Positions 11,752 to 33,522 of a DNA stretch of 36,590 nt are shown one piece after another. Every line of letters begins with the position of its first letter. The stretch's first letter is position 1. Origin of the DNA: Bacteroidota bacterium (GTDB lineage Bacteria; Bacteroidota; Ignavibacteria; Ignavibacteriales; Melioribacteraceae); contig JAJYXU010000142.1 of the NCBI GenBank assembly GCA_021801605.1, forward strand, positions 1-36,590. Reading direction: 5' to 3'. The notes under the pieces were generated by a model. The model was not told where the DNA came from. It made no database searches and saw only the letters and a list, made by a program, of their open reading frames with translations. Made by a program: the position numbers and the translations under genes.

Positions 11752-11988
11752 ATGAACAAGATAATTCTTCAGACCGGGTTGTTATTTTTTTTCTTTTCGG
11801 TGATCTATTTCACGCAACGGGGAATGTCTCTTGAGAAAATTCTGCTCAATTCATTTGTCATCTTTATCATACTTACTTCTATGCTCAGCATAATAGTAAT
11901 TGGAATAATAAAAGCAATTAATAGAAACTCGCTCAATAAATTAGGCGACTATTCAGAGAACTTAGCAGGAAAAACAAAAAATGAGTAA
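11752..11988 (+). CDS. Small two-helix membrane protein, unknown
   Basis: 78 residues preceded by a good ribosome binding site (AAAAAAGGATGCT). Two hydrophobic helices (about 3-21 and 30-54) are followed by a polar tail ending KLGDYSENLAGKTKNE. I recognise no family. It is the first gene behind the candidate sigma-54 promoter and overlaps fliA by eight bases, so it would be made together with FliA. A role in flagellar assembly or membrane tethering of a regulator is conceivable from position only. Confidence 0.75.
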   Translation: MNKIILQTGLLFFFFSVIYFTQRGMSLEKILLNSFVIFIILTSMLSIIVIGIIKAINRNSLNKLGDYSENLAGKTKNE

Positions 11989-12613
11989 TACAGCTCTTTG
12001 GACTTCGTACAAACAAAATCCATCAACGGATTTGAAGAAACAGATTGTGCTCAATTACGTAAATCTTGTTCACTACGTAATTCATAAAACCAATCTAATT
12101 CAGAACGGGATTTTAGACCGCCGCGATTTCTTTCAGTTTGGTATTGAAGGATTAAGCGAAGCTATAGACCGGTTTGATCCCGATTTTGGAACAAAGTTTG
12201 AAACGTATGCTATTCAGCGAATACGTGGAAAAATTTACGATGAGCTGCGCAAATACTCAGACAAATTTGAACATGCTGTTCAGGGTGATAGCTGTACAAG
12301 TTATTATTTATCCAGTATCTCTTTGAATCAAACCGTTAACGATGATGATGGAATGCAATATCAAGAGATGATTCCAAGCAGCGCAGAAAAACCCGATGCC
12401 ATTTTGGAAACGAAAGACTTAAAACAAAGACTGGTTGAGATAATAAAAGAACTCGGTGAAAGAGAAAGAACGATTTTGAGTCTGTATTACTACGAAGAGC
12501 TGAACTATAAAGAAATTGCCCAGGTTTTAAATATTACGGTTTCCCGCGTATCACAAATTCATTCTAAAATAATAGGTGCACTTAAACTTAAGCTGGCAGA
12601 GTACAATGCTTGA
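11981..12613 (+). CDS. fliA: Flagellar sigma-28 factor FliA
   Basis: 210 residues. Sigma region 2 is evident in RRDFFQFGIEGLSEAIDRFD and GTKFETYAIQRIRGKIYDEL (about 44-90). Region 4 shows ERERTILSLYYYEELNYKEI, then an HTH ending VSRVSQIHSKIIGALK. The 2-3-4 domain layout and short length fit the FliA/WhiG class. FliA directs late flagellar genes; a near-consensus target promoter is seen at 29137-29163. The anti-sigma factor FlgM is not recognisable in this window. Confidence 0.95.
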   Translation: MSNTALWTSYKQNPSTDLKKQIVLNYVNLVHYVIHKTNLIQNGILDRRDFFQFGIEGLSEAIDRFDPDFGTKFETYAIQRIRGKIYDELRKYSDKFEHAVQGDSCTSYYLSSISLNQTVNDDDGMQYQEMIPSSAEKPDAILETKDLKQRLVEIIKELGERERTILSLYYYEELNYKEIAQVLNITVSRVSQIHSKIIGALKLKLAEYNA

Positions 12614-22770: not shown

Positions 22771-23649
22771 ATGAGAGTAACAGAAGGCTCAATAACTGCA
22801 ACTTACTTATATAATCAGCAGCAGGTTCTCAAGCGTAAGACTCAAATTCAAACTGAACTTGCAACTAATAGTAAGATTCAAACGCTATCGGATGATGTTA
22901 CAGGTTCTCTTGAGAGCATAAAAATAAATTCTCAAATAAAGAAAACCGATACTTATGCGCAGAATGGAGTGAATGCAAAACAGTTTATGAATTCATCATT
23001 GCAATTGCTTGATAATATGACTGTGGAAATTCAAAAAATATTGACAACATCCATCAATTCCGAAAATCCGTTTAATGTTCAAAATTATGGAACGATGGCA
23101 CAATCAATTAAGGATTCATTAAACGCGATTGTGCAGAATATGACGGCAAAGCAAAATGATATGCCTCTTTTTGGCGGAACTAATTTTAAAGATGTTCCTG
23201 TCACAATTGATGTCAATGGTAAAGCTGTCCTTTCGGTTGGAGATTTTTCCGGCGAAATGAAAGCTCAAATTTCTCAGGATGTAAAACAGACATTCAACAT
23301 ACCCGGTTCAAAAATTTTGAATACCGGTTTATTTGAATCTATTAACAGTATAATCGATTCTTTAAGTGGGGGAACTCCTCCTACGACCGCACAGCAAACA
23401 GATCTGGAAAACGCTCTTCATGCAATATTAAATATACAATCGCTCGGCGGGCAGTCTATTAATCGAATGGATGATATAAATCAAATGTTAACAAATCAAA
23501 AATCGAATTTGCAGGAGATGCTGAGTAACAAACAGGGAATTGACGTAGCGGCACTTTCCGTAGAATTGCAGAACAAAGATTACTTATTACAGATAACAAA
23601 TAAACTTTTAGCAAACAATTATCCAAAATCTCTTTTTGATTATATATGA
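22771..23649 (+). CDS. flgL: Hook-filament junction protein FlgL
   Basis: 292 residues. The N-terminus RVTEGSITATYLYNQQQVLKRKTQIQTELATNSKIQTLSDD is FlgL-like. The PLFGGTNF segment at about 130-137 is a FlgL hallmark, and the C-terminus is a flagellin-like helix. It starts two bases after flgK and overlaps motA by four bases. Flagellin itself is not present in the window. Confidence 0.93.
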   Translation: MRVTEGSITATYLYNQQQVLKRKTQIQTELATNSKIQTLSDDVTGSLESIKINSQIKKTDTYAQNGVNAKQFMNSSLQLLDNMTVEIQKILTTSINSENPFNVQNYGTMAQSIKDSLNAIVQNMTAKQNDMPLFGGTNFKDVPVTIDVNGKAVLSVGDFSGEMKAQISQDVKQTFNIPGSKILNTGLFESINSIIDSLSGGTPPTTAQQTDLENALHAILNIQSLGGQSINRMDDINQMLTNQKSNLQEMLSNKQGIDVAALSVELQNKDYLLQITNKLLANNYPKSLFDYI

Positions 23650-24425
23650 TAAATAAAACCGGAACATTGATTGGACTTCTTGTTGGTTTGTTCTCCATTT
23701 TCGGAGCGTTTTTTTTAGAAGGCGGGTCCTTTAAAGCGCTGTTTCTATTTTCATCTTTATTGATAGTTTTTGGCGGAACATTTTCGGCAATCATCATTGG
23801 TTTTGGATTGGATAAATTTAAGAACATCACTACGCTCATTCGTCTTGCTTACTTTCCCAGAGAGTTTGATATAAACAGAGTGATTGACACTTTTGTAGAA
23901 CTTTCGATAAAAGCACGAAAGGAAGGATTGCTTTCCATTGAAAAAGATTTGAACAAGTTCGGTTACGTCTTTCCAAAAAAAATGACAAAGTTTGTGCTTG
24001 ATGGTACAGATGCAGATTCGCTTCAGAACCTTGCCCATCTTGAATTAAGAACTATGCAGGAACGGCACTATTCAAACATTTTCATATTTACAAAAATGGG
24101 CGGCTACGCACCAACAATGGGCATTATAGGAACTGTAATGGGTTTGATTATGACCCTTGCTAATGCCGGCGCAGATCCGAATTCGTTAATTAAAAATATA
24201 GCAACTGCATTTATTGCAACGCTGTGGGGAATCTTCAGCGCAAACATTTTATGGCTTCCGGTAGGAGATAGATTAAAAAGATGTCATTCAGAGGAGAAAA
24301 ATATGATGGAGATTTCTTTGGAGGGAGTGTTAACACTTCAGAGCGGAGAGATTCCTTCGATAATGAAGGCAAGACTAATAGGAATGCTTCCGCAAAGAGA
24401 ACAATTAAACAAAATGAGTTCTTAG
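23646..24425 (+). CDS. motA: Stator protein MotA, PomA-like class
   Basis: 259 residues with four transmembrane helices. Landmarks are RKEGLLSIEKDL (cytoplasmic loop charges), KMGGYAPTMGIIGTVMGLI (helix 3, conserved Pro) and a C-terminal EISLEGVLTLQSGEIPSIMKARL. It resembles PomA and Bacillus MotA more than the Escherichia coli type. It starts within the flgL stop. Its last 145 bases also encode the proposed N-terminus of MotB in another frame. An internal in-frame ATG at 24303 has a strong AGAGGAG upstream, which may be coincidental. Confidence 0.93.
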   Translation: MINKTGTLIGLLVGLFSIFGAFFLEGGSFKALFLFSSLLIVFGGTFSAIIIGFGLDKFKNITTLIRLAYFPREFDINRVIDTFVELSIKARKEGLLSIEKDLNKFGYVFPKKMTKFVLDGTDADSLQNLAHLELRTMQERHYSNIFIFTKMGGYAPTMGIIGTVMGLIMTLANAGADPNSLIKNIATAFIATLWGIFSANILWLPVGDRLKRCHSEEKNMMEISLEGVLTLQSGEIPSIMKARLIGMLPQREQLNKMSS

Positions 24426-25087
24426 ATTCCGAAGAAAATCCTTTTGCTGAAAGCGGCGATAAAGATCGGTATTTAATTACCTATTCCGATTTAATCACTT
24501 TGCTTTTAGGTTTGTTCATTATTCTTTACGCAATATCGAATATTGACAGTGGTAAGTATAAAAATGTTGTTGCTGCTATGGGTAGTTATTTTGGCACCAA
24601 CGCTGTTATTCCTAAAATGGCTGATTCCAAAATTTTGATTAAGCCAAAAGATAAATTGAGTGAAGAACTCAGTAAGTTGATTGTAGAAAATAATTACTCG
24701 AACTCAATTCAGTTGGAAGAAACTGAAAGAGGTATTACGATTCATATTCTGGATGATATTTTATTTCCGCCCGGAAAGGCGGATATAAATGAAGCTTCTA
24801 AATTAGTATTGAAAAAATTGGCTAAAGTTCTCGGCACCATTCCAAACGATATCAGAATAGAGGGGCACACAGATAATATACCGATATTTACTGAGCGCTA
24901 TCCATCAAACTGGCATCTTTCTGTGGATAGAGCGTTAAGCACGGCTTATTACTTAATAAAACAAGAAAATATTTCGCCGGATAAAGTTTCTATTGTTGGT
25001 TACTCGGAATATAGACCAATAGCGTCAAACAGCACTCCGGAATCTAGAGCAAAAAACAGAAGAGTAGATTTAGTAATTCTTAAGTGA
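24281..25087 (+). CDS. motB: Stator protein MotB, PomB/MotS-like class
   Basis: 268 residues if the ATG at 24281, inside motA, is used; it is the only canonical start before the membrane helix. That places the ion-binding Asp at residue 70 (TYSDLITLLLGLFIILYAIS), whereas family members usually have it near 24-36. AGGAG lies 13 bases upstream of the ATG. The C-terminal OmpA-like domain (about 145-268) binds peptidoglycan: IRIEGHTDNIPI, NWHLSVDRALSTAYYL, SRAKNRRVDLVI. A noncanonical ATT at 24407 would give the Asp a normal position (29); the sequence does not decide. Confidence 0.88.
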   Translation: MSFRGEKYDGDFFGGSVNTSERRDSFDNEGKTNRNASAKRTIKQNEFLDSEENPFAESGDKDRYLITYSDLITLLLGLFIILYAISNIDSGKYKNVVAAMGSYFGTNAVIPKMADSKILIKPKDKLSEELSKLIVENNYSNSIQLEETERGITIHILDDILFPPGKADINEASKLVLKKLAKVLGTIPNDIRIEGHTDNIPIFTERYPSNWHLSVDRALSTAYYLIKQENISPDKVSIVGYSEYRPIASNSTPESRAKNRRVDLVILK

Positions 25088-25093
25088 GTAAAT

Positions 25094-25474
25094 ATGAAAA
25101 TCAATACGCATCAATTTGGTGAAATTGAATTCACCGAAGAGAAAATAATTAAATTCGAAAACGGTTTGTTCGGATTCGAGTATTTGAAAAAATATCTTTT
25201 CATTAAGCCAGATGATAGCTTTTTCTATTGGCTAAACTCAATCGAAAATCCCGATATTGCTTTCCCAATGTTCGGTCTAAGAGTTATTGATGATCAATTC
25301 CCGCAGGAAGAAAATTTTGAGGCATTCGGAATTGTTACGCTTAACTCTAATCCTCTTAATATTACATTGAATCTGAAAGCGCCGGTTTATATTAATCAAA
25401 ATGATAAATCGGGATTTCAAAAAATAGTTGATACGGATAATTACCCGGTTAACTACAACCTTTTTTCTGAGTGA
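25094..25474 (+). CDS. fliW: Flagellar assembly factor FliW
   Basis: 126 residues: KINTHQFGEIEFTEEKIIKFENGLFGFEYLKKY, then FYWLNSIENPDIAFPMF and a C-terminal NITLNLKAPVYINQNDKSG, the FliW pattern. FliW binds flagellin and CsrA in turn, releasing CsrA repression when flagellin accumulates or sequestering CsrA when flagellin is exported. It overlaps the region of the csrA start, as in many genomes that use this switch. Confidence 0.96.
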   Translation: MKINTHQFGEIEFTEEKIIKFENGLFGFEYLKKYLFIKPDDSFFYWLNSIENPDIAFPMFGLRVIDDQFPQEENFEAFGIVTLNSNPLNITLNLKAPVYINQNDKSGFQKIVDTDNYPVNYNLFSE

Positions 25475-25482
25475 AGGTGATT

Positions 25483-25719
25483 ATGTTAGTGCTAACAAGA
25501 AAAATTAATGAGGGTATTAAAATTGGTTCGGAGATAACCATAAAAATATTATCCATTTCCGAAAATCAAATTAAGATCGGCATTGATGCTCCTAAGAATG
25601 TACAAATTTACCGCGACGAAGTATTTGAAAAAGTAAAAGAGAGCACAATAGAAGCATCGCGTGCAAGTATTCAAAAGGAAGCAGACCTATTCAAATACAA
25701 AATCCAAAAGGTTAAATGA
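25483..25719 (+). CDS. csrA: Carbon storage / translational regulator CsrA
   Basis: 78 residues from ATG 25483, chosen because CsrA proteins begin MLxLTRKxxE and GAAGGTGA lies just upstream; an in-frame GTG at 25471 is less likely. MLVLTRKINEGIKIGSEITI, then IKIGIDAPKNVQIYRDEVF, is the canonical RNA-binding fold. CsrA blocks flagellin (and other) translation by binding GGA motifs in leaders. Coupling to fliW indicates the FliW-CsrA-flagellin loop. Confidence 0.97.
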   Translation: MLVLTRKINEGIKIGSEITIKILSISENQIKIGIDAPKNVQIYRDEVFEKVKESTIEASRASIQKEADLFKYKIQKVK

Positions 25720-25722
25720 GAA

Positions 25723-26439
25723 ATGGACTTTGATCACGGTAAAATAAAAATCCTTGTAATTGATGATTCTGATATTATCAGAAGTACATTAAAAAAATTC
25801 TTACTTGAATATGAGATTGAAGTTATTACCAGTAACGACGGACTGGAGGGATTACAGCAGGCAATTGAGCACAAACCGAGATTGATCTTTCTCGATTTGA
25901 TGATGCCGAACCTTGACGGCATTCGTTTGCTTAGAGTTCTAAAAGTGATGGAAGAGTTGAAACATATTCCCGTTATAATTATTAGCGGACATACCGATAA
26001 GACCAATGTTATTGCTGCTATGGAAGCCGGTGCGGAAAAAATCGTATCAAAACCGCTGACAAAAGAGATTCTCATTAAAAGCATAAATGAAGTTCTTGGC
26101 GGTAATTTTCTCGGCAGTTCTAAAAAATTTCTTAATCTGACTAATTCGGAAAAAGAACAGATGGCTAAAGAACTAAAAAAATATTTTATAAATAGTCTTG
26201 CAAACAAAAAAGAAACACTCAAAAAATCACTCGATCATAAAAATATGGAACTCTTGAAATTAGTTGTTCATGAATTGAAAGGATCAAGTGGAACAGTCGG
26301 ATTTCACCGCATAACAGATATCTGCCGGGAAATTGAAGCTTATGTCTCTTTGCCGGATAATAGCTGGAATGAAATTGGGCAAAAGTGTCAACTTTTAATG
26401 GAAAGCTTTCAGCAAGCCGAATCATCTGTGGTTAAGTAG
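25723..26439 (+). CDS. REC-Hpt phosphorelay protein
   Basis: 238 residues. An N-terminal receiver domain (about 9-125) has IDDSD, phospho-acceptor Asp58 in FLDLMMPNLDG, and the ISGHT and SKPLT switch residues. A C-terminal Hpt domain (about 145-235) has phospho-acceptor His183 in VVHELKGSSGTVGFHRI. It can in principle pass phosphate between Asp and His. It lies three bases after csrA and ten before motA2. No CheA is encoded nearby, so its donor is unknown; the PAS kinase at 29836 is one candidate. Confidence 0.9.
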   Translation: MDFDHGKIKILVIDDSDIIRSTLKKFLLEYEIEVITSNDGLEGLQQAIEHKPRLIFLDLMMPNLDGIRLLRVLKVMEELKHIPVIIISGHTDKTNVIAAMEAGAEKIVSKPLTKEILIKSINEVLGGNFLGSSKKFLNLTNSEKEQMAKELKKYFINSLANKKETLKKSLDHKNMELLKLVVHELKGSSGTVGFHRITDICREIEAYVSLPDNSWNEIGQKCQLLMESFQQAESSVVK

Positions 26440-26449
26440 GAGATAAAGA

Positions 26450-27310
26450 ATGTTTGTAATCATAGGAATTGTTGTTGTAATAATTTCAGTGGTGGCTGGA
26501 TTTACTATAGCCGGGGGTAATTTATTCCTGCTGATTCAAATTTCGGAATTCATCACTATTGGCGGAGCCGTAATAGGTAGTGTACTTATCGCTTCTCCAG
26601 TAACATTGATTAAAAAAATTATCAAAGTTTTCCCTAAGATTTTTAAACATTCAAAAAACACTAAAGAAGATTATACCGAGATGCTAAAAGCTTTCAGCGA
26701 TCTTTTCTTAATTGCACAAAGAGAAGGATTGCTGGCAATTGAAAAACACATTGAAGAACCTGATACCAGCGAGATACTTAACCGGAACAAAAAATTTATT
26801 AACGATAATTACCGGAAAAACTTTTTTTGTGATACAATGAAAGTTATGCTTGCCGGCTCAGTTCCGCCGCATGAAATGGAAGGATTGATGGATGCTGATA
26901 TAGAAACTTATGAAAAGGAAAACAAGCCTGTAATTGAAACAATTTCAAGAGTCGGCGATTCTCTTCCTGGTCTTGGAATTGTTGCGGCAGTTCTTGGAAT
27001 CATTGTTACAATGGCTTCAATCAATCAAGGTGCAGAAGCAGTTGGTCATCATGTGGCTGCGGCGCTTGTCGGAACTTTTCTTGGCGTTCTTCTCGCTTAT
27101 GGATTTGTTAATCCACTCGCTGCAAACATAGCAAATATGTTTGAAGAGGATGTGCAGGATTTACAAATCATAAAGACTTACATACTTGCTTATGCAAAGG
27201 GAAACCCTCCTTTTGTTGCGGCAGAGATTGCAAGAAGAACAATCTTCTCTGACGAGCGCCCGTCGTTCCAGGAACTTGAAGCGTTCTTAAGGGGGAAAAA
27301 GGACAAGTGA
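26450..27310 (+). CDS. motA2: Second stator protein MotA, Escherichia coli-like class
   Basis: 286 residues, longer than the first MotA. The N-terminus (GFTIAGGNLFLLIQISEFITIGGAVIGSVLI) and the loop FLIAQREGLLAIEKHIEEP follow the proton-type MotA of enterobacteria. The helix 3 region is VGDSLPGLGIVAAVLGIIVTM. A good ribosome binding site (TAGGAGATAAAG) is present. It differs strongly from the MotA at 23646, so this is not a recent duplication. Confidence 0.93.
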   Translation: MFVIIGIVVVIISVVAGFTIAGGNLFLLIQISEFITIGGAVIGSVLIASPVTLIKKIIKVFPKIFKHSKNTKEDYTEMLKAFSDLFLIAQREGLLAIEKHIEEPDTSEILNRNKKFINDNYRKNFFCDTMKVMLAGSVPPHEMEGLMDADIETYEKENKPVIETISRVGDSLPGLGIVAAVLGIIVTMASINQGAEAVGHHVAAALVGTFLGVLLAYGFVNPLAANIANMFEEDVQDLQIIKTYILAYAKGNPPFVAAEIARRTIFSDERPSFQELEAFLRGKKDK

Positions 27311-28080
27311 GCGATAACGGAACAGAAGCAACTCCTGTAATTAAAAAAATTAAAAAGTCTCACGGCGGTCATCACGGAGGAGCTTGGAAAGTTGCATACG
27401 CAGATTTCGTAACCGCTATGATGGCGCTATTTATTGTTTTGTGGGTGTTAAGTCAGAAGCCGGAAGTTATTAAAGCGGTTGCAGGTTATTTCAAAGATCC
27501 TATGGGTTTTTCCGAAAAGACTAAAGTTTTGATAGAAGGAAAAGCAAACCCGGTACCGAGTTTGAAAGCAGAAGAAGACGATGTGCAAAAACATGAAATG
27601 GAGAAAGCTGAATTAGAAAAAGTCGGGGAGAAATTAGTACATGAATTAAAAGCCGATACTGATCTGTTGGGACTTGCAGATCAAGTAAAAATTGAAGTTG
27701 TTAAGGAAGGATTACTAATTGAATTGACAGACTCTGAAAATGATATTTTTTTCGATCTTGGCACATCGGAGTTGAAGGACAGAGCAAAAAAATTAATTTA
27801 TAAAATTGGTTCAGAGATTTCGAAAATGCCTAACAAAATTATTGTGGAAGGACATACGGATTCCCATCAGTATAATAATACTGGTACTGGATATACTAAC
27901 TTTGAATTGAGTTCCGAGCGTGCTCTTGCCGCAAAGAGAGCATTGGTCACGGGCGGCTTAAAGGAGAAACAAATTGATGAAGTACGCGGTTATGCCGATA
28001 CTCGTTTAAGAAATACTCAAAATCCGCTAAGCTTTACAAACAGAAGAATTAGCATTACTGTAAAATTTAATAAACCATGA
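27307..28080 (+). CDS. motB2: Second stator protein MotB, proton-type signature
   Basis: 257 residues from GTG 27307, overlapping the motA2 stop and preceded by AAAAAGGA. The N-terminus has the classic HGGAWKVAYADFVTAMMALF with the ion-binding Asp in YAD. It is followed by a plug-like segment (AVAGYFKDPMGF). The C-terminal OmpA-like domain has IIVEGHTDS, FELSSERALAAKRAL and FTNRRISITV. The motif closely follows proton-driven MotB, in contrast to the first MotB. Confidence 0.93.
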   Translation: MSDNGTEATPVIKKIKKSHGGHHGGAWKVAYADFVTAMMALFIVLWVLSQKPEVIKAVAGYFKDPMGFSEKTKVLIEGKANPVPSLKAEEDDVQKHEMEKAELEKVGEKLVHELKADTDLLGLADQVKIEVVKEGLLIELTDSENDIFFDLGTSELKDRAKKLIYKIGSEISKMPNKIIVEGHTDSHQYNNTGTGYTNFELSSERALAAKRALVTGGLKEKQIDEVRGYADTRLRNTQNPLSFTNRRISITVKFNKP

Positions 28081-28484
28081 AAACACTAAAAAAAATATTG
28101 ATAATTGAAGACGACTCATTTCTACAGGATTTTTACAGAATTATTTTTAAGAAAATTGGAGCTGAGATTATTCTTGCCGAAAACTCTAATGATATTTTGA
28201 GAATAGTTAGTGAAGGTGAAGTTGAATTAATAATTATGGATATAAATTTGAGAAACACTAGCTTAAATTCTCAGCGGATTGATGGAATAAAATTATCGCG
28301 GTATATCAAAGAACGGTTTAGCCACCTTCATATTCCAATAATACTTATTACTGCTTATCCACTGTCGAGTTTTGGTAATCACCTCCTTGAGGATAGCCTG
28401 GCTGATGATTATCTTATTAAACCGATAGCCGATTATAATCAACTAATTGAAAAAATAAACAACTTGGTTTGCATAAAAACATGA
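28077..28484 (+). CDS. Single-domain response regulator with an acidic-loop insertion
   Basis: 135 residues, REC only. IEDDS supplies the acidic pair, Asp55 in IMDINL is the phospho-acceptor, and ITAYPL and IKPIAD supply the Thr and Lys. Between Asp55 and the usual DG there are about eight extra residues (RNTSLNSQRIDG). It overlaps motB2 by ATGA. It could be a CheY-like output to FliM or a relay element. Confidence 0.87.
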   Translation: MKTLKKILIIEDDSFLQDFYRIIFKKIGAEIILAENSNDILRIVSEGEVELIIMDINLRNTSLNSQRIDGIKLSRYIKERFSHLHIPIILITAYPLSSFGNHLLEDSLADDYLIKPIADYNQLIEKINNLVCIKT

Positions 28485-29134
28485 AAGATTCAGTTCTAAT
28501 TGTAGAAGACGAAAAAGATACTCGGTTTATACTCGAGAAACTTTTATCCAGAAATAATTACGAAGTAACCAGTGCGGTAAACGGGCAAGAAGCATTAGAA
28601 GTGTTAAAAACTTTTTCGCCCAAAGTAATCCTTGCCGATTGGACAATGCCGATACTGGACGGTCTGGCGCTTTGTAATGTCTTAAAAAATGACGAGAAAT
28701 ATAAACTCATATATTTCATAATACTCACGGCGCGCTCATCCTTAAAAGACAGAATAATGGGACTTGATGTTGGCGCGGATGATTTTTTGATCAAACCGGT
28801 TGAAAACCAGGAACTGCTTGCGCGTATTCGATCCGGAGTAAGAATATTTAATCTTCAAAACGAATTGAGAAGTATTGAACACTCGAAGGCAATTGTAGAA
28901 ATGGCTTGTACAATTGGACATAAAATAAATAACCCGCTTAGCAGTTTGGTGTTTTCAATCAAAAATATTGAAAATGAACTTTTGCAGAAAGATAAATCAA
29001 AGTACGCAGAAGACATTAATTCTGTAAATGAATCAATTGAGCGGATTAAAAAGTTTGTAAACGAGTTAATTCATCTCGAAAAACCGGAAGTCGTAAGCTA
29101 TTTTGAAGAAAAAGGGATGATAAAGACGGATTAG
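28481..29134 (+). CDS. REC domain fused to an orphan DHp-like histidine domain
   Basis: 217 residues from ATG 28481, which overlaps the previous stop; a TTG at 28469 is in frame but has no advantage. The receiver domain (1-120) has VEDEK, Asp53 in ADWTMPILDG, LTARSS and IKPVEN. The rest (about 128-205) resembles a histidine kinase dimerisation helix pair: MACTIGHKINNPLSSLVFSI with His147 at the H-box position. There is no ATPase domain, so it may accept phosphate in the manner of Spo0B or from a kinase in trans. It is the last gene of operon 2. Confidence 0.85.
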   Translation: MKDSVLIVEDEKDTRFILEKLLSRNNYEVTSAVNGQEALEVLKTFSPKVILADWTMPILDGLALCNVLKNDEKYKLIYFIILTARSSLKDRIMGLDVGADDFLIKPVENQELLARIRSGVRIFNLQNELRSIEHSKAIVEMACTIGHKINNPLSSLVFSIKNIENELLQKDKSKYAEDINSVNESIERIKKFVNELIHLEKPEVVSYFEEKGMIKTD

Positions 29135-29136
29135 TA

Positions 29137-29163
29137 TAAAATAAATGTCTTTTCTTTCGATAA
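29137..29163 (+). promoter_or_regulatory. Sigma-28 (FliA) promoter
   Basis: TAAAATAA-N11-TTCGATAA fits the FliA consensus TAAAGTTT-N11-GCCGATAA, with TAAA and CGATAA intact and exactly 15 bases apart. It sits in the 47-base gap after the REC-DHp gene and predicts a start near 29170, just before the GGAGGAGAAGG ribosome binding site of the gene at 29182. FliA is encoded in this window, so the next unit is probably a late flagellar (class III) transcript. Confidence 0.75.
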
Positions 29164-29181
29164 TAATGCGGAGGAGAAGGC

Positions 29182-29832
29182 ATGTTAGAAAAAATTGTAA
29201 ATATTTCTGCTGGATCGGATTATAAACAATCTTCAAAACCCGGCAAGCAATCATCTGTATCTAACTACATAAGTAGTTACCATGCAGTGAGTAACGATTC
29301 TATCTCGCTCTCACCTGCCACGTCTTTTCTCTCCGGTATCGGCTGGAAACTCAAAAAATTTCAAAACGAAAAAGAAAAACTGCGCATTGTTTTTTCATTT
29401 GATGATTTCGATTTTTCAACGGCTATCATTCCCGGTGAAATAATTCAGCTTCAGCGGATAGATTATGAAATAAAATATTCTCTTAACTCTTATACGGGAA
29501 TAGCTAATATGAATATTGAAGTTTCATCGCCTTTAAATTTTGAAGGATCCGAAAGTATTCAGGTTAAATTGCATCTGCCTGAATTGAAAATTTTTTTTGG
29601 TTCAATTATTTCGTCCTTTGGTTTTAAAACAGACGTGTCTTCAAGTACTTACGAAGTGCAAAGATATTTTTTGGAAATGGAAAACGTGCTTCAGCGGGAA
29701 TTCAACTATATAAATAAAGGGCTCATTAATTTTTTGGAAAAATATCTTTCATTAAAAATTAGTTTAAAACATGAGGATGTTGTTACCAGACGTATGTTAG
29801 AGCTGAAATTATTGCGGATAAATAAAACTTAG
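29182..29832 (+). CDS. Unknown protein, first gene behind the sigma-28 promoter
   Basis: 216 residues with an excellent ribosome binding site (GGAGGAGAAGG). No signal peptide or membrane helix is seen. The N-terminal 50 residues are Ser-rich and probably disordered (GKQSSVSNYISSYHAVSNDS, then ISLSPATSFL). The middle is beta-strand-like and acidic/aromatic (FSFDDFDFSTAIIPGEIIQLQRIDYEIKYS), and the C-terminus is helical (EVQRYFLEMENVLQREFNYINKGL). I do not recognise a family. A short similarity of DSISLSPA to FlgM-like DxVxLS is too weak to call. The promoter marks it as motility-linked. Confidence 0.78.
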   Translation: MLEKIVNISAGSDYKQSSKPGKQSSVSNYISSYHAVSNDSISLSPATSFLSGIGWKLKKFQNEKEKLRIVFSFDDFDFSTAIIPGEIIQLQRIDYEIKYSLNSYTGIANMNIEVSSPLNFEGSESIQVKLHLPELKIFFGSIISSFGFKTDVSSSTYEVQRYFLEMENVLQREFNYINKGLINFLEKYLSLKISLKHEDVVTRRMLELKLLRINKT

Positions 29833-29835
29833 AAT

Positions 29836-31686
29836 ATGGCTCATTCCAATTATTCAAAATATACCGTGGTAAATTCCGAAATAGATTTTCGAAATTATAC
29901 CGAGTTGCCGAACAACAATCCATTGGTGATCGTTGATCGGAAAATGAATATTGCATACTGCAATGATGCGTTCAGAGAAACATTTGCCCTTGATGTTCAA
30001 GACGATATATCGAAAATGAATTCCAATCCGGAGTTCGTTTATTTTCTAAAAGGATTTAGCGAGAGCCGTTATAAAAATATCTCGCTAGAAATAAATTTGT
30101 CTTCCGATAATAATCAGCTTACTAAAAATTATTCTGTCAGTATAGAAAGGGTCATCATCTCTTCCGGTCTCTATTATGTCCTGGCGATTGAATCTTTGGC
30201 GCAACGGAAGAAACTTGAGAATAAAATAAACTCGCTTCATAATGCGCTCGATCATGGGAACGTTCCTATAATTATTCTAGACGCAAGCGGCAAAATAACT
30301 TACGCAACACGTTCATTTGAAGTCCTTCTGTTACAGGAAATAGAAAGTATTTATAATAAAAATCTAACTGAAGTGTTATCCGATATTCTTGATCGAAACG
30401 AAATTGTAAATCTTGAACAAGCGCTTAAAACTTTTTTATCATGGAAAAAAATAATCCCTTTCTTAACTAGAATTCCCGTAACGTTTTGGGAGTTCACTCT
30501 GAACCCTGTATTATCTAATGATGAACTCCAGCAAAGTTTTATTTTTATTGCGAATAACCTAACTGAACATATAAATCAAACTAAAGCAATAGAGCACTCC
30601 GAGCGGAAACAAAGATTAATTATAAATAATATTTCCGATTTGCTGCTGATTGTCGAGCATATCGGGTCGGCGGCATTGTTCGAAAATGCAAACGATAATT
30701 TCTGCCGCATTTTTAAATTGGATAAAAATAAAATCTACTCTTTAAGGATTGATGATTTTATTCCGAATGACCTGGTTGATAAAATTTATCAGTCAATGAA
30801 ACATCTCTCAAATTCCAACCTTCCGTTTTATGAATTCAATTATAAAAATTTTGATAAGCGGGATTACTCGTGCAAAATTAACAGTATAACCGAGCATGAA
30901 CGAAATTCGATAATCTACATTATAACCATGAAAGACATTACGGATGAAGTTCTCTATCAAGAACAATTAAAGAGAGCATACCGCAAAGAAATGCTTCTTA
31001 ATCAAATGAAGTCCGATTTTCTTGCAAACATGTCGCATGAGATTCGTACTCCTTTTAATGCTGTAGTGGGATTTTCGGAGATAATTGATGAGAGCATCGA
31101 AGCAGGAGATACAGAGATGCTTCGCGATTTAATGGCTTCTATGAAAGAAGTCCTTGGGCGCGGTCTTAACTTGTTCACCAACATTGTAGAAGTTTCTCAA
31201 CTTGAAGCGGGAGAGGTTGAATTAGATAGAGTGGATTTGAACTGCAACCAGGTAGTTAGAAATGTATATCATAAGATGCTGAATGAAACTGCCAAAAAAA
31301 ATATTGAATTTGTTTTAGATGTTGACGAGGAAGATTGTGTTATTGAAGTTGACTGGGTGAAACTGGAAAAGATAATTCACTCTCTGGTAGATAACGCCAT
31401 AAAATATACTAATCACGGAAGCGTTTATCTAAGCACAAAACATTTGGGCGATAGAATAGAAATTGTAATCTCGGATACAGGCGTTGGTATAGATCAATTG
31501 CATATTGAAAGAATTCTAAAACCTTTTACACAGGAAGTGGAAGGATATACACGCCCATTTGAAGGTGCCGGACTCGGATTGACGATTGCCTATAAATTGA
31601 CAAAACTGATGGATGGTAGGTTTGAAATTGAAAGTGAAAAAAATAAGGGGACTAAAATTTCAATCAGTTTCCCTGCGAGTAAATAA
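29836..31686 (+). CDS. Soluble multi-PAS sensor histidine kinase
   Basis: 616 residues with no membrane helix. Three PAS-like regions are visible: about 27-120 (NPLVIVDRKMNIAYCNDAF), 140-245 (VPIIILDASGKITYATRSF) and 260-375 (SDLLLIVEHIGSAALFENAN). The kinase core has His401 in ANMSHEIRTPFNAVVGFSE, the N-box in SLVDNAIKYTNHGS, DTGVGI, and GAGLGLTIAYKL. All catalytic motifs are intact. It has no attached receiver, so its partner is presumably one of the orphan REC proteins just upstream. It lies three bases after the unknown gene and is probably transcribed from the same sigma-28 promoter. Confidence 0.92.
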   Translation: MAHSNYSKYTVVNSEIDFRNYTELPNNNPLVIVDRKMNIAYCNDAFRETFALDVQDDISKMNSNPEFVYFLKGFSESRYKNISLEINLSSDNNQLTKNYSVSIERVIISSGLYYVLAIESLAQRKKLENKINSLHNALDHGNVPIIILDASGKITYATRSFEVLLLQEIESIYNKNLTEVLSDILDRNEIVNLEQALKTFLSWKKIIPFLTRIPVTFWEFTLNPVLSNDELQQSFIFIANNLTEHINQTKAIEHSERKQRLIINNISDLLLIVEHIGSAALFENANDNFCRIFKLDKNKIYSLRIDDFIPNDLVDKIYQSMKHLSNSNLPFYEFNYKNFDKRDYSCKINSITEHERNSIIYIITMKDITDEVLYQEQLKRAYRKEMLLNQMKSDFLANMSHEIRTPFNAVVGFSEIIDESIEAGDTEMLRDLMASMKEVLGRGLNLFTNIVEVSQLEAGEVELDRVDLNCNQVVRNVYHKMLNETAKKNIEFVLDVDEEDCVIEVDWVKLEKIIHSLVDNAIKYTNHGSVYLSTKHLGDRIEIVISDTGVGIDQLHIERILKPFTQEVEGYTRPFEGAGLGLTIAYKLTKLMDGRFEIESEKNKGTKISISFPASK

Positions 31687-31689
31687 ATT

Positions 31690-33522
31690 ATGCAATCGGT
31701 TTTAGAAAAATATAACCAAACCGGTTTGGACAATGAAGTAAATTACTCCAAATTTTTTCACCTTGCCAAAGAGCATTTTCAAATAAGTATCAAAAACGAT
31801 TACGACTATATCAACGGAATTAAAGAGAGTATTCGATTTTTCTCACTTGATTTGCCGGCAGAGGTTAAAGAAATTTTCATCCCGTTTGCTGAAGCACCGG
31901 TCTTCTGGATTTATGAATCATCATTGCTTAATCAGATTGAAGAGTTTATGAAATTTAACCTTGTGAAGGGTTCTTATATCGAATTGCATAAATCAATTAA
32001 AGAAAATTACTCCAGATGGGTTACTACAAAATTAAAAAGTGAAAAAGATTATTACGCTACATTAACAATCAATTTTATTGAACGTGATATAAATAAACAT
32101 AATTTTTTCAATCAAATCATTAAAGCAATTATCCTTACGTATCAAAGTACATTTTACAATCCGGTACGCGCATTGGAAATACTTACTAGTACGTTGGGAT
32201 TGATGAACACAATCCGGTTGAACGATCAGTCAAAGGCAGAGTTAAAATATATTTTAATTCTTTACACCGGATTTATTCACTTAAAAGAAAATGATAATGA
32301 AAAAGCGAATCTTGCTTTTAAAGAAGCTGTCGGTATCAAACCGCAAGGAAACACAGCAAAAATTTATTGCGCTTTGACTGAAATAATTCTTGGAAACAAA
32401 GAGGGCGGTATATTTCTGCTTAAAGAAATTTTTAATTACGATGTTCACCGGTTAACACTGGCTATCAAAACAAATAATACGGGAATGTTCAGCTATTTTT
32501 ACAGAAATGCTTTTATCTACAATATATTTCATGAAAAAGAGTTTGCGAAAGCTTACAATAAAATTGAATCTTTCTTAAGTGAAAGCCGTGTTCATGATGC
32601 AACCACATTAACAACATGCAAAATCAGTTTGGAATCTTTCAAAATAAAAAGGTTAGATGATTATTATGATGATGAGATTAAAAAATCAATATCATTTTTA
32701 GAAAAGATTTTACAAAACTATTCCTCTTCTACAAACACACTGCTCTATTCGCTTTACCCGGAATTTCAAAACAGATTTAAAGCTTTAGTGGAATCTTTAA
32801 TCCAAAAGATAAAAGAGAAATATTATAACGAAGTTAGAGAAAAAGTATCTTTGTATGATTACTCAATAAACGAAAGCTTAAGCGCAGAAAAACATATGAC
32901 TGAAGAGATCGAAAGATATAAATCGAAATCGAAAGAAAATCTTTCCAAATCTATTCAACACATAAATGAAAATTTTGATATTGAAACCCGTTTACTTGAG
33001 CAGAAAATTGATGAGCTGCCCAATGTTGACCGCTTCAATCCGCGTGTATCTTTATCTAACAACATGACTTATAATATTATCATTGCATTTGTTGTTTTTT
33101 TCATCGGCGGAATTGCCGGCTATTCAAACAAGACCGTCTCTGATACTTCCGAGTTTAACTCTATGTTCACTTTTGTTCTCATAACAGGTTCAAAGTGGGG
33201 AGCTATTAGTTTTGTTTTAGGAGCAGTTATTTCTACAATTATGGCAGGTGTCATTTTGATCGAACGTTCTGATATGCGCCAGAAATTATTACGAAAAATA
33301 AATTATATGAAAATAGAGAGGGAACGATTAATATCAGATTTAAGAGAATCTGCTCTTCAAAAAGAAAAAGTTATGTGTGATAATTTCAATAACAGTATAG
33401 TTCAACACCGTAAGCGGGTAGAAGAACTTAAGATTCAGAAAGACGAGTTAGAACGCTCACTTATGAAAGAAGCCGAAGAAAAAATTAACGTAGCCACTTC
33501 AGATCTTGATCTTCTAAAATAA
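31690..33522 (+). CDS. Large coiled-coil membrane protein of unknown function
   Basis: 610 residues. Residues 1-330 are helical and include a tetratricopeptide-like stretch (LKYILILYTGFIHLKENDNEKANLAFKEAVGIKP near 205-235). Residues about 370-440 form a charged coiled coil. Two membrane segments follow (about 458-478, IIIAFVVFFIGGIAGY, and 500-520, AISFVLGAVISTIMAGVIL), then a second coiled coil (about 525-605) rich in Glu/Lys/Arg. Both long ends should be cytoplasmic. I recognise no family. It follows the PAS kinase by three bases and is likely a partner of it. Confidence 0.82.
   Translation: MQSVLEKYNQTGLDNEVNYSKFFHLAKEHFQISIKNDYDYINGIKESIRFFSLDLPAEVKEIFIPFAEAPVFWIYESSLLNQIEEFMKFNLVKGSYIELHKSIKENYSRWVTTKLKSEKDYYATLTINFIERDINKHNFFNQIIKAIILTYQSTFYNPVRALEILTSTLGLMNTIRLNDQSKAELKYILILYTGFIHLKENDNEKANLAFKEAVGIKPQGNTAKIYCALTEIILGNKEGGIFLLKEIFNYDVHRLTLAIKTNNTGMFSYFYRNAFIYNIFHEKEFAKAYNKIESFLSESRVHDATTLTTCKISLESFKIKRLDDYYDDEIKKSISFLEKILQNYSSSTNTLLYSLYPEFQNRFKALVESLIQKIKEKYYNEVREKVSLYDYSINESLSAEKHMTEEIERYKSKSKENLSKSIQHINENFDIETRLLEQKIDELPNVDRFNPRVSLSNNMTYNIIIAFVVFFIGGIAGYSNKTVSDTSEFNSMFTFVLITGSKWGAISFVLGAVISTIMAGVILIERSDMRQKLLRKINYMKIERERLISDLRESALQKEKVMCDNFNNSIVQHRKRVEELKIQKDELERSLMKEAEEKINVATSDLDLLK

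Follow-up and report, generated by a model that had tools for sequence, protein, structure and literature searches.

The window, a stretch of 36,590 nucleotides, represents the cluster of flagellar genes in a member of the class Ignavibacteria, and our in silico analysis indicates that it contains a late flagellar operon at the 3' end of an early one, whose expression is probably gated by a sigma-28 (FliA) promoter together with a hairpin that locks the ribosome-binding site (RBS). The late operon consists of the genes for a 216-aa protein (P216), a multi-PAS histidine kinase (PASHK) and a 610-aa protein (P610), and it follows, on the same strand and at a distance of 47 bases, the gene for the response regulator RR-HisKA. 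The putative translational lock in which the promoter is embedded is the most informative feature of this locus. At the level of transcription, the gate would be formed by the sigma-28 promoter present in the 47-base gap; at the level of translation, it would be provided by the inverted repeat in which this promoter is placed. RNA reading through from the early operon would carry both arms of the repeat and should form a 15-bp helix over the Shine-Dalgarno sequence and the start codon, so that P216 would not be made. Since only three bases separate the P216 and kinase genes, translational coupling would extend this block to the kinase. RNA initiated at the sigma-28 promoter would lack the 5' arm and be translatable, and P216 and the kinase would consequently be produced only once sigma-28 is active.

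The promoter (positions 29137-29163) reads TAAA-N15-TTCGATAA, which is equivalent to TAAA-N17-CGATAA, the CGATAA core (29158-29163) being located 17 bases from the TAAA element (29137-29140). Both sigma-28 cores, TAAA at -35 and CGATAA at -10, are present, and the distance between TAAA and the octamer amounts to 15 bases, as required. In the excerpted text of PMC2859248, the E. coli FliA consensus is given as TAAAGTTT-n11-GCCGATAA; the -35 core, the -10 core and the spacing of the E. coli promoters presented there are the same as those of the window site, whereas the octamer in the lineage studied here is either TTCGATAA or TCCGATAA. The original prediction had placed a near-consensus FliA promoter of the form TAAA-N15-CGATAA at this position. 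The site is indeed there, but a scan with spacers of N14-16 finds no match at it, and N15 is correct only for the distance to the octamer; the scan at N16-18 recovers the window site as TAAAATAAATGTCTTTTCTTTCGATAA. Across the genome, TAAA-N17-CGATAA has 43 matches versus 17 for N16, 28 for N18 and 61 for N14 and N15 combined (counted by hand from the scans at N14-16 and N16-18), an excess over chance with P(≥43 given 26.5) = 0.002. When judged with a simple open reading frame (ORF) picker, nine of the 43 N17 sites are intergenic. Whether flagellin shares the promoter was a check suggested by the original prediction, and it does: the N17 element precedes the flagellin gene (intergenic), a FlgM-like gene of 83 aa and a gene whose product has a FliK Flg_hook domain, with the sites of the latter two falling inside the end of the upstream ORF. 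The FlgM-like gene scores 18.8 bits with the Pfam FlgM model (cut-off, 25) and is not listed by a genome search with PF04316; it aligns over its full length with relatives, some of which exceed the Pfam cut-off. We also noted a duplicated promoter, two near-identical sigma-28 sites (TAAAATAATTCA...CTCCGATAATATAGCC) 2.9 kb apart on the minus strand of L085, which precede a FliK-domain gene (L085:238-2475) and a gene for 153 aa whose start resembles a signal peptide (L085:4957-5418).

Among relatives of the window's family, we found the exact site in 33 of the 62 P216 upstream regions with enough sequence, and a site with at most one mismatch in 54 of them; the corresponding expectations from 200 rounds of shuffling are 0.14 (maximum 2) and 2.6 (maximum 7). 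The N17 spacing is kept in 54 of the 58 family sites within two mismatches. In two other families of the order, for which 40 of the 44 P216 genomes outside the window's family were sampled, 32 of the 40 upstream regions possess the site with at most one mismatch (plain count). Copies of the P610 gene that stand alone provide an independent test of sigma-28 control: 17 of 18 carry such a site within the 250 bases upstream, where 2.2 are expected (maximum 5 in 100 shuffles), and the best sites of the ten intact copies located behind the kinase gene have two to three mismatches. No site within two mismatches was detected for G042, G002 and G056a, and the G052 upstream region is cut by a contig end; G064, which possesses both site and helix, was overlooked owing to a misassigned start and does not enter the counts, and the ORF picker did not yield P216 of G032. 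Conservation of the site in front of both P216 and the stand-alone P610 thus lends strong support to the late-class control proposed initially, and the P216, kinase and P610 genes are very probably controlled by sigma-28.

The -10 region is situated within an inverted repeat that the original prediction did not report. Positions 29145-29159 pair with positions 29169-29183 over 15 consecutive bp (-17.9 kcal/mol; z = -4.82; 0 of 200 shuffles equally stable), and the predicted helix buries the Shine-Dalgarno sequence and the AU of the AUG start codon. According to the excerpted text of PMC2859248, the E. coli aer transcript starts six bases after the octamer. By analogy, the transcript is predicted to start at 29169 or 29170 in the window, and since the 3' arm begins with these bases, the sigma-28 RNA would be devoid of the 5' arm. 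The mean predicted openness of the start region in 55 promoters, folded with 12 coding bases, is 0.27 for the read-through RNA versus 0.82 for the sigma-28 RNA. Read-through from the preceding operon, which had been named as evidence against the promoter, is instead something that the sequence seems designed to counter, through a hairpin that would hide the RBS.

For an assessment of the arm pairing, the in silico hybridisation of each 5' arm to its own 3' arm was compared to that with 3' arms from other genera. In the window's family (55 distinct rows, 27 genera), own arms averaged -12.05 compared to -8.0 for swapped arms, and among 88 rows from 41 genera, with one row per genus and draw, the values were -9.68 and -6.63, with none of 5000 permutations performing as well. 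The second family alone (11 genera) yielded one permutation as good in 5000, and the third, represented by four rows, had no own-arm excess (-6.08 own, -6.23 swapped). Swaps within genera, which curb the influence of common ancestry, gave the advantage to own arms for 14 of 19 genera (in two by 0.05 or less; Wilcoxon p 0.003). The 55 family rows derive from the 58 sites after removal of G056b, which lacks the CG in its -10 element, and of two exact duplicates, and G102, G100, G086 and G135 were dropped from the 37 other-family rows within two mismatches for misplaced or non-canonical sites. Covariation was measured in the 26 rows of equal length among the 55: changes on both sides of the helix occupy 27 cells versus 12.2 in shuffled data (0/500), and the covariation score is 0.316 versus 0.222 (0/500). 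A duplex at or below -9 is present at 36 of the 55 P216 starts versus 7 of the 418 starts that belong to nine other genes in these loci, for which own and swapped pairing are the same. Stand-alone P610 genes have no such excess at their sigma-28 promoters (-5.27 own, -5.32 swapped; -9 or below in 3 of 17), nor is a helix of this kind found at the flagellin (-0.7) and FlgM-like (-1.6) promoters. The helix goes with a sigma-28 promoter located behind an early operon, and not with sigma-28 promoters in general.

The promoter could also be genuine and the complementarity a by-product of a pyrimidine-rich spacer facing a purine-rich Shine-Dalgarno sequence, with no lock involved. The 5' arm is indeed rich in T and C and the 3' arm in A and G, swapping the arms still leaves a pairing of about -7 to -8, and the strong duplex is missing in 36 of the 88 promoters. 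We nevertheless consider this explanation unlikely, as own arms surpass swapped arms in the permutations and in most of the within-genus swaps, strong helices are built from quite different sequences (G029, G013, G054, G126, G158), and the excess does not extend to the stand-alone P610 promoters. Dyads across promoters are commonly operators, and the inverted repeat might accordingly serve as the DNA target of a repressor or activator overlapping the -10 element; this is highly improbable given that the arm sequences vary between genera while their pairing is kept, and that the mismatches in helices chosen by Watson-Crick pairs alone comprise 63 G-U and 10 A-C, compared to 129:86 expected from composition, a bias that points to RNA of the mRNA strand rather than to a DNA operator. 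Least probable, to the point that we give it hardly any credence, is an inactive promoter-like motif with expression of all three genes by early-operon read-through only: the genes do lie on the same strand behind a 47-base gap without a terminator-like site (such sites occur at chance level, 5 found and 5.5 expected), but the motif is conserved in this non-coding gap although P216 homologues are only 19-37% identical to that of the window, and it recurs at 17 of the 18 stand-alone P610 copies.

Several findings weigh against the combination of a sigma-28 promoter and an RNA lock that we favour. The read-through from the early operon is assumed, and sites within two mismatches (58 of 62 P216 upstream regions, 18.7 expected) are weak evidence when taken alone. 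Two of the five covariation measures did not rise above shuffled data (67/500 and 187/500); sliding the register by one column lowered the number of double-change cells from 27 to only 25 or 23, and register +1 even contains more pairs with a double change (9 versus 8). The four other-family rows dropped as misplaced promoters come in addition to the 88. With 60 coding bases included, the Shine-Dalgarno sequence of the window's short RNA is only partly open when the RNA starts at 29170 or 29171, and mostly paired with the coding sequence when it starts at 29166 or 29168; the RNA starting at 29169 has a minimum free energy of -5.9, no better than shuffles, and pairs the Shine-Dalgarno sequence as well, although this fold is far less stable than the lock (-5.9 versus -17.9). 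The duplex is weaker than -9 in 19 of the 55 family promoters and in the 36 of 88 mentioned above, and the genera g18 and g24 have no row that reaches -9; the lock is not universal. The presumed cognate sigma factor, a FliA-like protein encoded in the flagellar operon, scores 153.5 bits with the FliA/WhiG model TIGR02479, below the cut-off of 189.6, and in a genome search two other sigma genes match this model better in one stretch (141.7 and 134.8 bits). Regions 2 and 4 of the FliA-like protein exceed the Pfam cut-offs, and it aligns to the FliA/WhiG model only at 2-71 and 127-223 of 224, so that region 3 looks shortened. The frames of the orthologues listed are mostly 207-226 aa long. G033 and G077, in which neither FlgI nor P216 was matched, retain a FliA-like gene, that of G077 with an internal stop; these genes are perhaps remnants of flagellum loss.

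Locks of this type have precedents. In phage T4, the RBS of I-TevI is hidden on transcripts of the early and middle promoters but not on late transcripts, and similar arrangements are named for I-TevII, I-TevIII, segB and Aeh1 mobE (PMC2988022, excerpted text). Measured against the I-TevI case as presented in that excerpt, our locus is alike in that the RBS is predicted to be sequestered on early or read-through RNA and an internal late promoter to yield RNA without the 5' arm; it differs in being chromosomal, in belonging to a flagellar hierarchy, in using sigma-28 instead of a T4 late promoter, in being predicted from sequence, and in the retention of promoter and pairing across two families of an order. 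Features of a T4-type lock are found here, namely an RBS that is predicted to be paired in the long transcript and pairing that is kept by compensatory change. IS10 is a further case of the T4-type arrangement, and a related one is reportedly described in a paper on the translational regulation of T4 lysozyme. Among the papers listed in our literature searches, we saw no flagellar gene with such a promoter-in-hairpin arrangement, which is not proof of its absence.

The distribution of the genes among the genomes of the family ties them to the flagellum. P216 was recovered from 34 of 56 genomes with the window protein as query and from 63 of 79 with a profile, and FlgI from 62 of 79; the two are discordant in only three genomes (G004, G019, G076), all less than 90% complete, and each is present in 47 of the 56 genomes with a completeness of 90% or more and a contamination of 5% or less. 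A relative of RR-HisKA precedes P216 in all 32 loci with upstream sequence (33 loci mapped), a relative of the PAS kinase follows it in 32 of the 33, and the upstream neighbour RR-HisKA was recognised in 36 of 40 loci from two further families of the order. P610 occurs in 42 of 56 genomes. All 12 genomes devoid of both P216 and FlgI are without it, as are G004 and G052, each of which has P216, FlgI or both. It is the third gene of the unit in 11 genomes. Among the 30 copies whose surroundings were examined (from 30 of the 42 genomes), 18 stand alone, with over 30 bases in front of them, and the G014 copy follows another gene at 2 bases. Named records with P610 relatives (five loci) are Stygiobacter electus (Melioribacteraceae), a metagenome-assembled genome (MAG) of Melioribacter sp., two Ignavibacteria MAGs and one "Bacteroidetes" MAG. 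Of the cultured relatives, Melioribacter roseus is reported to possess flagella (PMC3534657). The conserved unit thus consists of P216 and the PAS kinase behind RR-Hpt, MotA, MotB, RR and RR-HisKA, and P610 is a variable third member; of the three-gene unit beside flagellar genes envisaged originally, the first two genes hold and P610 joins them in 11 genomes only. Likewise, the statement that these are not known flagellar genes stands insofar as P216 and P610 match no Pfam or NCBIfam family, but not with regard to their distribution, by which both are flagellum-linked genes of this lineage.

The lengths noted earlier for P216 and P610 (216 and 610 aa) are right, as are the two gaps of three bases, and matches to family models confirm the multi-PAS kinase. 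The N-terminus of P216, which carries a D-S-I-x-x-S-P-A motif, is predicted with low confidence and probably disordered over the first 40 residues, and is followed by an alpha/beta domain; M1, L2, D39 and S44 are invariant. Comparisons of P216 with folds of the PDB gave a best Foldseek E of 0.14 and a best VIA-align Z of 5.0, both too weak for an assignment. The order alpha-beta-beta-beta-alpha-beta-beta is reminiscent of class I type III chaperones, but nothing we tested supports such a relationship. P610 is predicted to be nearly all helical, with a TPR-like N-terminus and long coiled coils, in agreement with the coiled-coil protein described earlier, and hydrophobic stretches suggest two probable membrane helices; searches of the PDB gave no match with an E up to 0.001, and the best hits were mostly TPR proteins.

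FlgM is the anti-sigma factor of sigma-28 and is exported through the flagellum. Residues 4-68 of P216 can be aligned with the FlgM-like proteins from these genomes (E 5.6e-4 in a single hhalign comparison, at a probability of 30%; one of the 15 rows in the FlgM-like alignment, L254, is a wrong ORF), and P216 shares with this family a low-complexity start and a D-x-I-x-I-S-x-x-A motif. Unlike FlgM, P216 has a folded domain after its N-terminal stretch, is 216 aa long and has no Pfam FlgM match; the N-terminal likeness is weakly indicative and serves as a lead only. If P216 were a protein with a FlgM-like head that is exported through the finished flagellum, it could restrain the PAS kinase inside the cell until its exit: upon completion of the hook and the export gate, P216 would leave and the kinase would signal to the second stator pair by way of the neighbouring receivers. 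Synthesis of P216 before the hook is finished would defeat such a checkpoint, which would account for a sigma-28 promoter plus an RNA lock; we regard this scenario as a long shot. The reading that we prefer, still tentative and less likely than not, is that P216 and the kinase feed the upstream receivers and the second MotA/MotB pair, acting on the finished motor. Our best guess is a late signalling unit that may act on the motor via the adjacent receivers and the second stator pair, in which the RR-HisKA protein may accept phosphate from the PAS kinase; the role in sensing or behaviour proposed originally is plausible.

The coordinates of the locus are compiled in Table 1. Among the window proteins, FliM, FliN, FliP, FliR, FlhB, FlgA, FlgI, FlhA, FlgN, FlgK, two MotA/MotB pairs and CsrA score above curated cut-offs of family models, and FlhF, FlgG, FlgJ and FlgL show the expected domains in Pfam scans; FliL, FliO, FlgF, FlgH, FliW and the FliA-like sigma factor were named by best match, with scores below the cut-off. 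The two MotA/MotB pairs are encoded within one flagellar operon (23646-25087 and 26450-28080). Gene calls by script were made by picking the longest ORF rather than with a gene finder, and names of neighbours are those of the best BLAST hits.

Table 1. Features of the late operon and its surroundings in the window.
Feature	Position	Strand	Basis or remark
FliA-like sigma factor, likely sigma-28	11981..12613	+	family-model match below cut-off; regions 2 and 4 above Pfam cut-offs
FliW-like gene	25094-25474	+	best match, below curated cut-offs
CsrA	25471-25719	+	above Pfam cut-off
Receiver-Hpt protein (RR-Hpt)	25723..26439	+	
Second MotA	26450..27310	+	
Second MotB	27307..28080	+	
Receiver-only protein RR1	28077..28484	+	
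RR-HisKA, response regulator with HisKA (DHp) domain, without ATPase domain; conserved upstream neighbour	28469..29134	+	
-35 element TAAA of the sigma-28 promoter	29137..29140	+	conserved in relatives
5' arm of the putative RBS-hiding hairpin, overlapping promoter spacer and -10	29145..29159	+	
-10 octamer TTCGATAA	29156..29163	+	identical octamer before flagellin and FlgM-like gene
Predicted start of transcription, 6 bases after the octamer	29169..29170	+	analogy with E. coli aer
3' arm of the putative hairpin, comprising the Shine-Dalgarno sequence and the AU of the start codon	29169..29183	+	
P216 (216-aa protein)	29182..29832	+	
PASHK, multi-PAS histidine kinase (616 aa)	29836..31686	+	
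P610 (610-aa protein)	31690..33522	+	

The presence of CsrA and a FliW-like gene in the operon is reminiscent of the CsrA-FliW control of flagellin mRNA. With a loose script, we found ANGGA in the loop of a small hairpin near the RBS in 13 of 18 leaders of stand-alone P610 genes (shuffled mean 1.0, maximum 5), among them L053, L054, L044, L046, L049 and L050, with two of the 13 loops lying well upstream. Such ANGGA hairpin loops resemble the consensus of CsrA sites; this likeness concerns the stand-alone P610 genes and not the arrangement in the window. The flagellin leader (L064:4480-4640, minus strand) contains CAAGC-ATGGA-AGCTTG and, at the RBS, ATGGAGG, both CsrA-site-like, which suggests FliW-CsrA control of flagellin.

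Flagellar hierarchies have been described mainly in terms of promoters and anti-sigma factors. Late genes positioned behind early operons face a leak problem, and an RBS hairpin in which the late promoter is embedded is an answer suggested by the locus studied here, a hairpin that compensatory change keeps over many genera. The locus defines an uncharacterised flagellum-linked regulon of the Ignavibacteria comprising P216, the PAS kinase and P610, the latter a mobile third member that mostly keeps its sigma-28 site when located elsewhere.

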